From: Pseudoprimorskyibacter sp.
Lineage (GTDB): Bacteria; Pseudomonadota; Alphaproteobacteria; Rhodobacterales; Rhodobacteraceae
Reading direction: 5' to 3'
Length of the DNA stretch: 35,652 nucleotides
NCBI GenBank assembly: GCA_029251265.1
Contig: JAQXDR010000011.1
Coordinates: forward strand, 1 to 35,652
Shown here piece by piece: positions 13,072-18,579 of this stretch (the stretch's first letter is position 1; each line of letters opens with the position of its first letter). Both the position numbers and the translations under genes were made by a program. A model generated the notes under the pieces. That model made no database searches and was not told where the DNA came from. It worked only from the letters and a program-made list of their open reading frames with translations.

Positions 13072-13185
13072 GGCCAGCCAACGCTCAGATCACACACGCA
13101 ACTCTCTGACTATCCCAACCAAACGCAGGCATTGCCGGGTCGGGGAGAGCTTGTTAGAAGCTTACGACCGAAAAAGGAATGTAAT

Positions 13186-13866
13186 GTGCCAAGTTTGTGG
13201 AAACGGTTAAAAGCCTGGGAGAAGTCCGTTCACAACAGTTACGTTGCAGACATTAGCACCCCGGAAAATTTAAAACGCGCACGGTTTTACATGCGCTGGC
13301 TGGACCATGAGGTTCTGCGTGTCTACTGGACCAATCTGTATGAAGTTACCCCCGGTGTTTGGCGGTCCAACCACCCCACTGAAAAAAGATTCCGCGACTA
13401 TAAAGAGCAGGGGATCAACACCATCCTCAATTTGCGCGGAGCTATCGACAGACCGTTCTATAGTATCGAGCGTCAACTGTGCGACCAAATCGGATTGGAT
13501 CTGCACAGTGTAAGTATGCAAGCAAAAATCGTCCCCAAGGTAGAGACGATGAAAACGCTGATCCATTTGTTACGTACTTTGCCAAGGCCGTTCCTGATGC
13601 ATTGCAAATCAGGCGCGGATCGAACGGGCTTAGCATCCGCTGTGTATCTTTTGGTGATCGAAGGTAAACCCCTCGCCGAAGCACAGAAAATGTTATCACG
13701 GCGCTTTGTCCATTTTGATAACCGTGGAACAGGCGTTCTGGATCATATACTGCGCTGCTACGGCGTCTACCATGCGGCGACCGGGCAGGATTTTGAAACA
13801 TGGCTAGATGACGGCTATGATCCAGCGGCCATCACTGCCGATCACCTGTCCAACTATAATAAATAG
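13186..13866 (+). CDS. Tyrosine/dual-specificity phosphatase-like protein
   Basis: A 226-residue protein with the cysteine phosphatase loop HCKSGADRTG (C140, R146), preceded by a DSP-type fold (YEVTPGVWRSNHPTEKRF, GINTILNLRGA). It likely removes phosphate from a protein, a phosphoinositide-like lipid or a sugar phosphate; related bacterial proteins vary. I take the GTG at 13186 as start because AAAAAGGAA (13171-13179) lies at the right distance. The frame is open further up to a TTG at 13132, but that part (GRGELVRSLRPKK) has no family character. There is no signal peptide. Confidence 0.85.
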   Translation: MPSLWKRLKAWEKSVHNSYVADISTPENLKRARFYMRWLDHEVLRVYWTNLYEVTPGVWRSNHPTEKRFRDYKEQGINTILNLRGAIDRPFYSIERQLCDQIGLDLHSVSMQAKIVPKVETMKTLIHLLRTLPRPFLMHCKSGADRTGLASAVYLLVIEGKPLAEAQKMLSRRFVHFDNRGTGVLDHILRCYGVYHAATGQDFETWLDDGYDPAAITADHLSNYNK

Positions 13867-13906: not shown

Positions 13907-14722
13907 TTAACTGCAACCGGAACAGGCCTCTATCATAAGTATTTCAAATGTAATCAATACGGCACCCTTACCTTCGAGTATCCGACCCTGAAACACGCCA
14001 CCGTCTGGATCAACACACACCAAATCAAGTGTGTTCGGCACACAATGCATTTGTGGAAAAAGCAACGCCTCGGAAATGGGTGACGCCATGTCACGACCCG
14101 TGGCAAATCCAGCACCAATCAGGCTTCCTATACCGAGGATATGAGCCTTTTTCCAACCTCTGTTTCGTAATACCTCTGACACAGCCGACACCAGATCCAC
14201 ATGCGGCGCAAGCCGTACCAGCGCACCATTTCCCTGCATGTTGACCGTGGACATGTGATAGATGGGAAACCCTGTCTCGGGATCTTGGCGCAGATCCAGC
14301 CGGGGGCCTTTCCAACGCCACATCACGACACGCGTGCTGTGGGCGACCGTTACTTTTCCGGGCAGTAGATGTCCCATACAGGCGCGCCCATCCTGCCACA
14401 GCGCATGGGCATGGAACCAGGGGGAATCATCGCGCCAACCCAAAAGGGCAGTTCCAGCCTGAACGTCTGCGTATTGCCCGCTGTGGGTGTCACTGTACCA
14501 CGCCGCGTGATGACCGTCAGCAGATTGCGCAGGCATGACGTAGCAATAGGGGCCCATCACCAACCCTGCCAGATCCACAGCTGCCCCATCCCAACCAGCC
14601 ACATGTGAATGCAGCACATCCAATAGATCAGCACCGGACGGCAAGGTGACTTCGATCCGCTCAACTGAACATGCCGCCTGATCAATCCGGTTGGGCACCT
14701 CAGGGCCCGGATGACGGATCAT
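13907..14722 (-). CDS. Protein with two PPC/DUF296-like domains
   Basis: A 271-residue protein. Residues about 20-140 carry the PPC (plant and prokaryote conserved, DUF296) hallmark: WFHAHALWQDGRACMGHLLP with H104, H106 and H118 as likely metal ligands, then VTVAHSTRVVMW. Residues about 170-270 look like a second, weaker copy (ILGIGSLIGAGF, GGVFQGRILEGKGAVLITFE) without the His triad. Single-domain relatives form trimers and bind metal or DNA; the role of the tandem form is not known to me. Its ATG overlaps the stop of the acyl-CoA synthetase gene, so it belongs to the same unit and may serve acyl-CoA metabolism. Confidence 0.75.
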   Translation of the reverse strand: MIRHPGPEVPNRIDQAACSVERIEVTLPSGADLLDVLHSHVAGWDGAAVDLAGLVMGPYCYVMPAQSADGHHAAWYSDTHSGQYADVQAGTALLGWRDDSPWFHAHALWQDGRACMGHLLPGKVTVAHSTRVVMWRWKGPRLDLRQDPETGFPIYHMSTVNMQGNGALVRLAPHVDLVSAVSEVLRNRGWKKAHILGIGSLIGAGFATGRDMASPISEALLFPQMHCVPNTLDLVCVDPDGGVFQGRILEGKGAVLITFEILMIEACSGCS

Positions 14723-16347
14723 TGCGGATCAGTTGGCCAAAGACCTTGCTGCTGCAAGGTTTCGCGCACCAGCTTTTTGGTAATCTTGCCGTATCCAGAC
14801 TTTGGCATTTCGCTCAGAAAAATGTAGCGATGCGGATGTTTATAGCTTGCCAACTGATCGCCAATATGTGCCGCCAGCTCGGCCGCAGAGGGCGCACTGA
14901 TCCCATCAGGTGCCACAATTACGGCAAGCCCAACCTCACCCCACTTGGGATGAGGTATTCCCAATATGGCAACCTCGCTAACGCAAGGATGGGTCAAAAG
15001 ATGTTCTTCTATTTCGCGCGGATAGACGTTTGAGCCACCCGAAATATACATGTCCGATGCACGTCCTGTGATATAAACATACCCCTGGTCGTCCATATGG
15101 CCCAAATCCCCGGTCAAAAACCACCCATTTCGAAACGCTTTTTCATTGGCGTCTGGATCATTGTAATAGCCTGCACAAACCGCAGGGCCGGCAACGCAAA
15201 TCTCGCCAGTTTCAAACGGGGCAACCGTTACGCCCGTGTCCGATTGAATTGCCACGTGCACCCCCGTACGCTCATACCCGCAAGTCCCGACACGCGCATG
15301 AGCATCGTCGAGGTGATGGTCCTCACGAGGAAGAACCGTGATCGCGCCAGTCACTTCGCCCAACCCAAAATACTGCACAAGCACCGGCCCCAATGCGCGT
15401 ATGGCATGTTTTTGATCAGCACGGTACATCGGCGCGCCTGCATAAATCACATACCGCAACGAGCTGTGATCATAGGTCTCAACAGCCTGATGTTCAGTTA
15501 GCATTTTTACAATGGTGGGAACGGTGAACATATTGGTCACACGATGCGTTTCGATCAATCGCCATGCATCCGCCGGATCAAAGCGTCCCGCTGGCATCAA
15601 GACCGAACCGACACCGGCTGCAATTTGGGCGAGCTGATGCATGCCTGCACCGTGGCTTAGCGGTGCTACGACAAGGCTCATGTCCTTCGATGGCGTGGTT
15701 GCCGGCATCAGATCGTTCAAATGGTTAAGGGTCGTGAACGTCAACTGGCCATGTGTCAGCACAACGGCCTTGGGCCGTCCCGTGGACCCAGACGTAAAAA
15801 ATAGCCATGCCGGGTCGTCACGGTCAACATCGGCATTCGGAGCTATAACTGGTAAGGTATTCTCAGCCAGATCATACAGTGTTGTGATCGGTGTGCCAAA
15901 TCCGTCTCCAATACAAATCACATCGTTCAAGCTTGGGTTTGCGGCACAGCAGGCAGTGGCATGTTCTGGAAAGTCTTCGTGACAAACCATCAACCGAGCT
16001 TGGGATTTGACGGACAAATAGGCAACTTCGTCCGGACTTTGCCGATAATTGGACGGCACCCACACAAGTCCCGCACGCCAACAGGCAAGCATAACCTCAG
16101 TCATTTCAAAACAGTTCGAGGACTGCACCAATACCCTGTCACCCGGTTCCATATTGAACTTCGTGACCATGGCCTGAGCAAGTGCAGTGACCGTTTTGTC
16201 CAGCTGGGCCCATGTTATAACCGTCTGGTCCTGAATCAATGCCGGTAGGTCAGGCAAACGCCGCGCATTACGGGTCAGAAAATGAGCAAGGTTATGGCCA
16301 CGGGTGGACCATGGCAAAGACGGGTCGCGGTTCGCATTTGCGGTCAT
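14719..16347 (-). CDS. Acyl-CoA synthetase (AMP-forming)
   Basis: A 542-residue member of the ANL adenylating enzymes, predicted to activate a carboxylic acid to its CoA ester through an acyl-AMP. Core motifs: the P-loop WLFFTSGSTGRPKAVVLTH, YFGLGEVTGAI, the hinge region FLTGDLGHMDDQGYVYITGR, ASDMYISGGSNVYPREIEEH and the catalytic lysine in SGYGKITKK. Its ATG overlaps the thiolase stop (ATGA), and the next gene overlaps its own stop in the same way. The thiolase partner suggests breakdown of a fatty, aromatic or steroid side-chain acid. The exact acid cannot be read from sequence. Confidence 0.92.
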   Translation of the reverse strand: MTANANRDPSLPWSTRGHNLAHFLTRNARRLPDLPALIQDQTVITWAQLDKTVTALAQAMVTKFNMEPGDRVLVQSSNCFEMTEVMLACWRAGLVWVPSNYRQSPDEVAYLSVKSQARLMVCHEDFPEHATACCAANPSLNDVICIGDGFGTPITTLYDLAENTLPVIAPNADVDRDDPAWLFFTSGSTGRPKAVVLTHGQLTFTTLNHLNDLMPATTPSKDMSLVVAPLSHGAGMHQLAQIAAGVGSVLMPAGRFDPADAWRLIETHRVTNMFTVPTIVKMLTEHQAVETYDHSSLRYVIYAGAPMYRADQKHAIRALGPVLVQYFGLGEVTGAITVLPREDHHLDDAHARVGTCGYERTGVHVAIQSDTGVTVAPFETGEICVAGPAVCAGYYNDPDANEKAFRNGWFLTGDLGHMDDQGYVYITGRASDMYISGGSNVYPREIEEHLLTHPCVSEVAILGIPHPKWGEVGLAVIVAPDGISAPSAAELAAHIGDQLASYKHPHRYIFLSEMPKSGYGKITKKLVRETLQQQGLWPTDPQ

Positions 16348-17513
16348 TTTGCGCGCTCTAGGATCGACACATAGTTGGCCACGGCGGCTCCTCCCATATT
16401 AAAGACACCTGCCAGATTCACATCAGGCAACTGCATGCCACCAGCATCGTCCATCAATTGCATCGCGGCCATGACATGTTGTGACACCCCCGTTGCCCCC
16501 AAAGGATGACCACGCGCTTTCAGCCCCCCGGAAGGGTTCACCGGCAACGCCCCATCTCGGGCGACAATACCCTCGCGGATAGCGCGCGCGCCCTGCCCGC
16601 GCGGCATCAAGCCCATTGCCTCGTATTCCAACAGCTCAGCGATGGTAAAACAGTCATGTGTTTCGACCAGGTCCAGATCCATCAGGTCAATACCTGCATA
16701 ATCCAGCGCCTGCGTCCACGCACGGCGAGCGCCTGCGAACTCTGTCGGATCGCGTCGTGACAGGGCCAAGACGTCGTTCGTTTGCACCCGCGACCGAAAC
16801 CGAATGGCACGTGGGGCATCCTGAGCAACTTCGGGCACCGCAAGAACGATCGCGACAGCCCCATCCGAAATCAAAGAGCAATCCATACGTCGCAGCGGTC
16901 CGGCCAGACGCGGGTTCTTTTCGCTGATCGTGTTACAAAATTGAACGCTGAAATCGCGCCGCATGTGGGCGTAGGGGTTCAAAACTCCGTTGGCATGGTT
17001 TTTCGCTGCAATCATCGCTAACGCTTTGGATTGATCGCCGTTGTCCTGAAAGTAGCGATCTGCAATCTGACCAAAAATGCCGGCAAAACCACCCTCTACC
17101 TCTGCCTCTTCATCACGGTAACACGCAGACAGGGTCACATCACCAACTTCGGCAGAACTGACACCCGTCATTTTTTCCGCCCCAATGACAAGCGCCACGC
17201 GGCCCCGTCCCGCCGCTAGAAAATCAAGCCCCGCATGCAAGGCGGCAGACCCTGTCGCACAGGCATTTTCCAGATGAACAGAAGGCACAGATGCCAATGC
17301 AGGTATTGCCATGCCAGCAAGAGCACCTTCAAATCCCTGTCTCGAAAACCCGTTGTTGTAGACCCCGACATAAAGCCCATCTATGTCTTCTGCGCCAACT
17401 TCGGCATGGCTCAGCGCTTGGGGAATGACCTCTGCCATCAAGGATTCGACATCCTCTGCATCGGACCGACCAAACCGGCTATGAGCCCAACCGATAATTT
17501 GAGCCTCTGTCAT
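16344..17513 (-). CDS. Thiolase family protein (SCP-x/lipid-transfer type)
   Basis: A 389-residue thiolase-fold enzyme that should cleave or form a beta-ketoacyl-CoA. The nucleophilic Cys85 is in LENACATGSAALHAG and the catalytic His in GGLKARGHPLGATG. The C-terminal FNMGGAAVANYVSIL replaces the second Cys motif, as in SCP-x-like thiolases. I choose ATG 17511-17513 because AAGGAGAAGG stands just before it on the minus strand; the frame is open about 20 codons further up without family character. First gene of the three-gene unit with an acyl-CoA synthetase and a PPC protein; a dyad about 130 bases upstream may control it. Confidence 0.9.
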   Translation of the reverse strand: MTEAQIIGWAHSRFGRSDAEDVESLMAEVIPQALSHAEVGAEDIDGLYVGVYNNGFSRQGFEGALAGMAIPALASVPSVHLENACATGSAALHAGLDFLAAGRGRVALVIGAEKMTGVSSAEVGDVTLSACYRDEEAEVEGGFAGIFGQIADRYFQDNGDQSKALAMIAAKNHANGVLNPYAHMRRDFSVQFCNTISEKNPRLAGPLRRMDCSLISDGAVAIVLAVPEVAQDAPRAIRFRSRVQTNDVLALSRRDPTEFAGARRAWTQALDYAGIDLMDLDLVETHDCFTIAELLEYEAMGLMPRGQGARAIREGIVARDGALPVNPSGGLKARGHPLGATGVSQHVMAAMQLMDDAGGMQLPDVNLAGVFNMGGAAVANYVSILERAK

Positions 17514-17641
17514 CGCCTTCTCCTTGATTGCCCCGAACCGTTCCAGCTTTTGGCGCCTAAGGTATATGTCCATAGCGCGCGCGTGCGCCCAAACGTCAAC
17601 GCCGCCAAAATTTGGTATACTATTGCTAATTTAGACCACGA

Positions 17642-17744: not shown

Positions 17745-18575
17745 TCAGCCAGCAACAGCTGCCTGAAGCATTCTTAGGGCAGTGATCCCCAAGAAGAGGG
17801 CAAAGGCACGCTTGATCCATTTGGTATCCAAACTGCTGGCGAGCCCGGCACCGAAAGGGGCCAGTAAAACCGTAAACGGTAAAATCAAGATTGTCGCCGC
17901 TATATTCACATACCCAAGCGACAAAGGTGGGCGACCCGGCACATCCCAGCCTGAGATTATAAAGCCAACCGTCGCGGGCAATGCAATGATCAGTCCAAAG
18001 CCAGCCGCCGTTCCCACCGCGCGACGGATATTGAAAGACAGAGCGGTTAGGATTGGAACCGAGAACGTTCCACCCCCAATTCCCATAAGCGCCGAAAAGC
18101 CACCGGTTAGAAAAGCTATCACCCAATTCGAAGCGCGTTTTTGCGGCAGTCCATCCCGGACTACCAGCGCTTTGGGAAGCGCCATGTTCAAGGCAACCGC
18201 TAACGCACAAAACCCAAACACACCCTTTAACCCCGCGGGGTCAATCACCTTGGCCGCTAATCCCCCAGCCAGTGCGCCCAATGCCATGGCAGGGGCCCAC
18301 AAGCGCAGTAAGGCCACGTCGACATTGCCCTTGCGCCAATGGGCCCTGGTAGATGACACGGATGTAAAAATGATTGTTGCAAGCGACGTTGCAACCGCCA
18401 TGTGCATTGTGAGTTCAGGCGGAAAGTCGACAAGGCTCAACATCCAAAACAGCATGGGCACGATAACAATACCACCACCAACGCCCAACAGGCCTGCCAA
18501 AATGCCTGCAACGCTTGATGATATGGACAGAACCACCAGCAAGATCAGTATGTCGTACGATGTCAGGTCTGCCAT
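17745..18575 (-). CDS. TauE/SafE-family anion permease
   Basis: A 276-residue inner-membrane protein with about eight hydrophobic segments. It shows the family repeat with glycine-rich loops: GILAGLLGVGGGIVIVPML near the N-terminus and LMGIGGGTFSVPILTAL in the second half. Members export sulfite, sulfoacetate or related anions, but many have unknown substrates. It could start at ATG 18573-18575 or the GTG just before it. It lies downstream of nqrF on the same strand, with a hairpin in the gap whose 3' arm overlaps the likely ribosome binding site GGGGGAA. Confidence 0.88.
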   Translation of the reverse strand: MADLTSYDILILLVVLSISSSVAGILAGLLGVGGGIVIVPMLFWMLSLVDFPPELTMHMAVATSLATIIFTSVSSTRAHWRKGNVDVALLRLWAPAMALGALAGGLAAKVIDPAGLKGVFGFCALAVALNMALPKALVVRDGLPQKRASNWVIAFLTGGFSALMGIGGGTFSVPILTALSFNIRRAVGTAAGFGLIIALPATVGFIISGWDVPGRPPLSLGYVNIAATILILPFTVLLAPFGAGLASSLDTKWIKRAFALFLGITALRMLQAAVAG

Positions 18576-18579
18576 CACA

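Follow-up and report, generated by a model that had tools for sequence, protein, structure and literature searches.

A tandem PPC protein with its conserved motifs divided between two domains, beside an acyl-CoA synthetase in Pseudoprimorskyibacter sp.: a possible metal-dependent enzyme of acid degradation

What does a protein made of two PPC domains do beside an acyl-CoA synthetase and a thiolase? The question was raised by three adjoining genes on the minus strand of a 35,652-nucleotide stretch of DNA from Pseudoprimorskyibacter sp. (contig JAQXDR010000011.1, positions 1 to 35,652; hereafter, the window). These encode a thiolase-fold protein (16344..17513; 389 aa from its likely start), an AMP-forming acyl-CoA synthetase (ACS; 14719..16347; 542 aa) and a tandem PPC/PCC protein (13907..14722; 271 aa), which Pfam family PF03479, an AlphaFold model and fold matches together predict to be a metal-dependent enzyme resembling acetolactate decarboxylase (ALDC). 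The original prediction held that the three genes were joined by ATGA overlaps, and both joints were present, reading tcat on the forward strand: thiolase stop with ACS start at 16344..16347, and ACS stop with PPC start at 14719..14722. It suggested further that the tandem protein might be an uncharacterised enzyme, a regulator or an acyl-CoA sensor. The explanation favoured here, at slightly less than even confidence, is that the protein, encoded next to a CoA ligase, is a metal-dependent beta-keto-acid enzyme with a composite active site and most likely decarboxylates its substrate.

The tandem PPC architecture was examined through family profiles and predicted structure. Against PF03479 (PCC), the window protein scored 29.6 bits, where the gathering cut-off is 25, and the best stretch, residues 168–263, corresponded to the second copy. 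The same family matched 66 of 70 aligned members at E <= 0.01. Both halves matched as separate rows in G484 and G341, which have split genes, and in G353, which has a single gene whose first half scored 21.6 bits, below the cut-off. Searching the window's genome with PF03479 found nothing at E <= 0.001; this was put down to limited sensitivity and not to absence, because the protein itself passes the Pfam cut-off. The AlphaFold (AF2) model built from the 70 aligned sequences had a mean predicted local distance difference test score (pLDDT) of 95.4, and was used instead of a single-sequence model (pLDDT 35). In Foldseek, the eight rows with E <= 0.001 were without exception single-domain PPC structures, the first of them titled 'metal-containing protein AF0104', while structure comparison returned PPC folds with Z of 13.8–15.0, on domain 1 only (model residues about 12–174). 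Domain 2 was placed by PF03479 and by PDB profile matches to 2p6y, 2hx0 and 2nmu. Since the comparison of domain 1 with domain 2 by hhalign was weak (probability 48%, E 0.00018, 30 columns), the tandem form rests on Pfam and fold, with the first copy recognised by fold and the second by Pfam. The fold model was PPC-like, as the original prediction required.

The conserved residues of the two copies were different. Domain 1 (about residues 15–162; 14237..14680, minus strand) contains H104, H106 and H118, together with D147, E149 and T150; domain 2 (about residues 163–271; 13910..14236, minus strand) contains G197-x-G199-S200, E218 and T258-x-E260, without a His triad. Among the 70 aligned relatives, H104, H106, G117, H118 and E149 were invariant, while D147 occurred in 68 and T150 in 69. 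S200 and E218 of domain 2 were likewise found in 70/70, and E260 in 67/70, with Asp in the other three. It had been claimed that the His triad was confined to the first copy, and this held throughout the family: the triad was never seen in copy 2, and the HxH..GH pattern, applied with a spacing limit, was found in 64/70 first copies and 0/70 second copies.

This arrangement is not that of single-domain PPC proteins. In 30 such proteins, taken from a draw across the phylum, the loop Gly, the Glu, HxH and GGH all lay within one domain (30/30), and the final Glu was present in 28. When the count was repeated without letting the His pattern choose the reading, all 30 were open and all 30 had HxH..GGH. 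Placed on a model of the single-domain proteins, domain 1 had His at both HxH positions in 68/68 placed sequences, and domain 2 had the loop Gly in 67/68 and the adjacent Ser in 68/68. No single domain of the tandem protein held the loop Gly, the Glu and HxH..GGH together; the triad was in domain 1 and the Gly-Ser loop in domain 2. Single-domain PPC structures (2h6l AF0104, 2dt4, 3hwu, 3htn, 2p6y, 2hx0 and 2nmu) therefore share the fold of domain 1 and, for domain 2, the match to PF03479, but they hold all motifs in one domain, whereas the tandem form places them in different domains or genes. The tandem protein is a tandem, divided subfamily of PF03479. The division is well marked in the case of the His triad and of the Gly loop, but less so for the acidic residues.

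In ten loci (L042, L069, L073, L079, L166–L170 and L202), the halves occurred as separate, neighbouring frames. The His half retained H, H, GH and D-x-E-T in 10/10 cases, and the other half retained Ser, Glu, Thr and Glu, also in 10/10. That both motif sets are conserved in separate genes would be difficult to account for if the halves did not form a single site. L042, L069, L073 and L079 contained a one-gene tandem PPC as well as the split, two-frame form, with a gene close by in each that was judged by eye to be AsnC/Lrp-like (cluster c15). In L050 (9388–9924, minus strand), a second PPC copy of genome G221 matched mainly from profile position 124 and is possibly decayed.

After PPC, the next fold in the structure comparison was that of an enzyme. 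Nine ALDC or ALDC-like entries had Z of 6.9–9.5, five of them above 8, and all other listed rows were at 4.1 or less, apart from PTD012. Domain 1 gave Z = 9.5 with 6j92 (root-mean-square deviation 3.8, 117 aligned) and Z = 8.9 with 4bt2 (3.4, 114 aligned). The superposition covers only domain 1 of the tandem PPC model, and in 8/9 entries the ALDC range fitted to it starts at residue 80–107, that is, in the later, His-bearing part. Seven ALDC sequences had an invariant GLGT..LDGE first and HxH..GGH second (H170-x-H172..GGH183 in the numbering of alignment A4). The three-His motif was shared, as H104-x-H106..G117-H118 in 70/70 tandem proteins, with the first Gly of GGH mostly replaced. ALDC (PF03306; 4bt2, 4bt3, 6j92 and 1xv2) thus resembles the tandem protein in the fold of its His-bearing part, in HxH..GGH, and in having a Gly loop and Glu apart from the His triad; it differs in having these parts in the reverse order, while the tandem protein is set in an acid-degrading CoA operon. 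The 70 tandem members matched 3 families, none of them PF03306, which had no match in the window's genome either. PTD012/C11orf54 (PDB 1xcr) was also in the structure list, with a weak score (Z = 4.3). This protein holds Zn on three His and was shown in 2025 to decarboxylate a beta-keto acid, 3-dehydro-L-gulonate; it is structurally related to ALDC, and the substrates of the two are alike, each with its keto group in the beta position (commentary, PMC12435205). PTD012 is comparable as a three-His Zn protein and beta-keto-acid decarboxylase, but belongs to the DUF1907 family and acts on a sugar acid. The 'uncharacterised enzyme' of the original prediction is supported.

Conservation of the gene order was assessed in several overlapping collections. 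Gene counts were taken from tblastn, as greedy open reading frame (ORF) calling skips or distorts genes where GC content is high. A collection of 80 named loci is biased to one subclade because the search patterns came from that subclade; the phylum-wide draw of 398 genomes provided a less biased check on linkage. A further 24 regions came from the window's family (23 full-length PPC copies and one partial), and the 80 and 24 loci overlap and share some genomes (e.g., L044/L051 and L036/L062). An initial contig scan with the window protein as sole query found no relatives.

Both partners adjoined PPC on the same strand in 69/80 named loci, so that the three-gene order is conserved and recurs more often than chance would give, and in 20/24 family loci; ACS alone adjoined it in 70/80 and 23/24, respectively. 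Two of the four family regions without thiolase were near contig ends (L034 and L040). PPC was matched in 23/295 genomes of the family, and an ACS ortholog in 22/295, all 22 being among the 23 with PPC; the ortholog threshold (E <= 1e-170) was set by the analyst and leaves weaker orthologs uncounted. The lone PPC genome without a counted ACS (G017) had an ACS cut off at the contig end. In the phylum draw, ACS adjoined 20 of 21 full-length PPC genes, the window's own included, with L139 as the exception. In 11/80 loci the two were fused, a single open frame of 811–822 codons running from the ACS match; such fusions occur in Neorhizobium, Rhizobium, Agrobacterium and relatives. The PPC start codon stood at the -4 place inside the end of ACS in 39/80 named loci, by a script that preferred such starts, while 8/80 had a gap of 731–816 bases between ACS and PPC, filled in 6 by a short-chain dehydrogenase/reductase (SDR; those named in the ORF table). 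In L092, ACS was next to PPC but divergent.

Linkage of thiolase was looser. Where it joins ACS, the ACS frame read ATGA or GTGA in 84/89 loci having both genes, but thiolase was found in only 2 of 13 stretches of 11–17 kb (L171–L183). Ten of the loci (L172, L173 and L176–L183) kept ACS-PPC with no thiolase found in the stretch. Because thiolase is absent from most of these stretches, the core is the ACS-PPC pair, and thiolase is a frequent third partner. The conserved linkage supports the shared pathway that had been read from the ATGA overlaps. A fixed stoichiometry of the three products, also read from them, was rejected, since thiolase is frequently missing nearby; ATGA-type overlaps are a common packing of co-transcribed genes.

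The tightness of the ACS-PPC pair bears on two other explanations. In the first, which is possible but doubtful, the tandem PPC would be a metal-dependent enzyme acting on the CoA thioester made by ACS and feeding or replacing thiolase, its chemistry perhaps a ketol-type rearrangement, hydrolysis or retro-Claisen cleavage of a 2-hydroxy-3-oxoacyl-CoA. That ACS is the tightest partner, fused to PPC in some loci and still paired with it in the ten lacking thiolase, is in keeping with this, as is the tertiary ketol rearrangement by which ALDC turns over the second enantiomer of acetolactate; against it, we know of no enzyme of this fold that uses a CoA substrate. The second, that PPC is a non-catalytic partner aiding the CoA ligase or thiolase through channelling or stability, a role like that of DUF35 proteins for thiolase-like aldolases, would also account for near-constant linkage and for fusion. 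It is considered improbable: a scaffold needs no invariant His triad and acids, let alone their retention in both split genes, and some PPC genes lack this ACS (e.g., L126, L031 and L124).

The remaining neighbours were those of a catabolic locus. With partners counted at 45% identity or more (>= 45%) to representative proteins, the 80 named loci included a tripartite ATP-independent periplasmic (TRAP) transporter in 67, an IclR-type regulator in 66 and SDR in 65. This neighbour set is a regulated uptake-and-degradation operon. It also bears on whether PPC itself regulates, binds DNA or senses acyl-CoA. Plant AHL proteins contain PPC domains, and the depositors of 3hwu, 3htn, 2hx0 and 2nmu titled these putative DNA-binding proteins. 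Such a role (regulator and sensor were among those originally proposed) is nonetheless very unlikely, because most operons already have an IclR-type regulator and because what is invariant is a His triad with acids; the fold ranked next after PPC is, moreover, that of an enzyme. The window copy had no TRAP, IclR and SDR partners nearby. A search of its genome, confined to a single TRAP query and a single SDR query, gave distant relatives only (best 34% and 39–40%, respectively). Directly upstream of thiolase and on the same strand there is a TauE/SafE permease gene (17745–18578; PF01925, 168 bits), which could replace the TRAP transporter of relatives.

Several TRAP sets occur among PPC loci, and one of these offered an indication of the substrate. 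The DctP-a proteins of 40 PPC loci were 61.6–73.4% identical to PDB entry 4oan, and the binding protein of L202, a locus with split PPC genes, thiolase, ACS, IclR and TRAP, was 79% identical to it. The 4oan protein is from Rhodopseudomonas palustris and was reportedly modelled with (S)-2-acetolactate. A review names 2-acetolactate among TRAP ligands (PMC5812351). The 4oan protein itself was located at L200 (8927–10036, minus strand; 100% over 309 residues), beside DctQM and a different AMP-ligase; DctP-a proteins of PPC loci are thus its relatives (61.6–79% identity), but its own neighbourhood has another ligase. In seven genomes of 6–8 Mb (G504, G329, G570, G616, G645, G664 and G448), a 4oan-type TRAP gene lay about 142–261 kb from ACS-PPC on the same contig. 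A second acetolactate link, through 4p8b as best PDB match of DctP-b, was dropped, its 237 bits comparing poorly with the 468–482 of DctP-a and 4oan. The leading hint for the substrate of the PPC operon is therefore an acetolactate-like acid. Two loci, L031 (1736–8606) and L126 (173–8879), had PPC with TRAP, IclR, SDR and two transketolase-like subunits, without thiolase or ACS; this setting would fit a decarboxylase yielding a hydroxyketone, and is only suggestive. The gene after PPC in L126 encodes a molybdopterin oxidoreductase.

The favoured explanation, a beta-keto-acid enzyme with a composite site, can be set out as a series of steps. Linkage of the genes, their fusion and splitting, the fold, and the conserved residues with their distribution over the two domains are observed, whereas metal binding, the shared site, decarboxylation, the order of events and the substrate are inferred. 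Two PPC-fold domains would have arisen by duplication, each then retaining a different half of one active site. Domain 1 may bind metal through HxH..GH, while domain 2 may contribute the GxGS loop and two acidic residues, so that both domains would together rebuild an active site of the ALDC kind with the domain order opposite. A TRAP transporter, in this genome elsewhere or replaced, would import a small hydroxy or oxo acid, which SDR enzymes may oxidise to its beta-keto form. From this, the tandem PPC enzyme would remove CO2, or it would split or rearrange the beta-keto unit in another way; the adjacent CoA ligase would activate the acid immediately ahead of this reaction or following it, and thiolase, where present, would cut the product into acyl-CoAs. 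Decarboxylation of a beta-keto acid seems the most likely activity because ALDC and PTD012 have such activity, and the SDRs could supply such an acid.

Several observations weigh against this interpretation. In Foldseek, ALDC reached an E of 0.0095 at best and its query TM-scores were near 0.25, and the ALDC Z was below 8 in 4/9 entries, which may mean only a common arrangement. Profile comparison of the tandem protein with ALDC by hhalign was not significant (probability 0.4%, E = 0.15), and the only aligned stretch was the His motif; because sequence profiles do not link the families, the tandem PPC is said to work like ALDC, and not to be ALDC. The structural model is of a single chain, and the site between its domains is putative. 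For the acidic residues, the correspondence of E218 and E260 with the two glutamates of single-domain PPC proteins comes from the alignment of the window protein and from a small number of placeable relatives; Glu occupied the equivalents of E218 and E260 in domain 2 in 10/10 and 7/7 placed sequences, but 60 and 63 of 70 were unplaced, and at the last acidic position of domain 1 the 26 placed had Asp in 15 and Glu in 3. PPC lacked an adjacent, same-strand ACS in 10/80 loci, three of which had it beside gamma-glutamyltransferase and one beside transketolase genes. Conversely, modules without nearby PPC were found in L204 (thiolase, ACS, IclR and TRAP) and L201 (ACS and TRAP). Around the 4oan gene itself, PPC, ACS and thiolase of this kind were not found in the 18 kb read (L200). 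There is also a chemical difficulty: decarboxylating the only carboxylate of a mono-acid leaves nothing for the CoA ligase to act on. The substrate would therefore have to be a diacid, or the enzyme would have to act on the CoA ester or perform different chemistry.

The two enzymes encoded beside the PPC gene were assigned by NCBIfam cut-offs. ACS passed the cut-off of the NCBIfam equivalog NF005676/PRK07470 (804 bits vs 774), and thiolase that of the NF005704/PRK07516 subfamily (620 bits vs 412). The longest form of the thiolase ORF extends over 16344–17573 on the minus strand (409 aa). The start at 17513, residue 21 of that form, is likely because alignments with homologues mostly begin at residues 15–26; three reach further upstream and begin at residue 6. 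The protein has the Cys (CATG), HDCF and GHPLGATG motifs. HDCF, presumably SCP2-like, and GHPxGATG were retained in 88/88 matched relatives, and the Cys pattern in 79/88. In L035 (6292–7466), the thiolase match was split over two frames, through sequencing error or decay of the gene. Elsewhere, a gamma-glutamyltransferase-like gene was directly upstream of the tandem PPC gene in L123, L124 and L129. In the window, a small DSP/tyrosine-phosphatase-like gene on the plus strand (13132–13866) and the PPC gene are convergent.

Folds and enzyme types that are already known appear here in a new arrangement, probably with a new activity. A search confined to the open-access literature, leaving subscription papers uncovered, found no description of this operon and no enzymatic role for a PPC protein. 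It is tentatively proposed that these proteins constitute an undescribed enzyme family in Alpha- and other proteobacteria, in which the active site would be shared by two degenerate PPC domains, whether joined, encoded by two genes or fused to the CoA ligase. Their logic would be that of ALDC with the parts reversed, the division having arisen separately, and they would perform a CoA-linked decarboxylation or carbon-skeleton step in acid degradation. The operon suggests that Rhodobacteraceae, Paracoccus, Rhizobiaceae, some Halomonas and other proteobacteria have a pathway for an organic acid that is so far undescribed. PPC proteins occur in bacteria and archaea, as seen in the control genomes, and also in plants. 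From a tandem form with His and acidic residues divided, linked so closely to a CoA ligase, follows a concrete hypothesis of enzyme function for all PPC proteins; if true, then by extension the single-domain PPC proteins, which have all of these residues together, would be metalloenzymes and not DNA-binding proteins.

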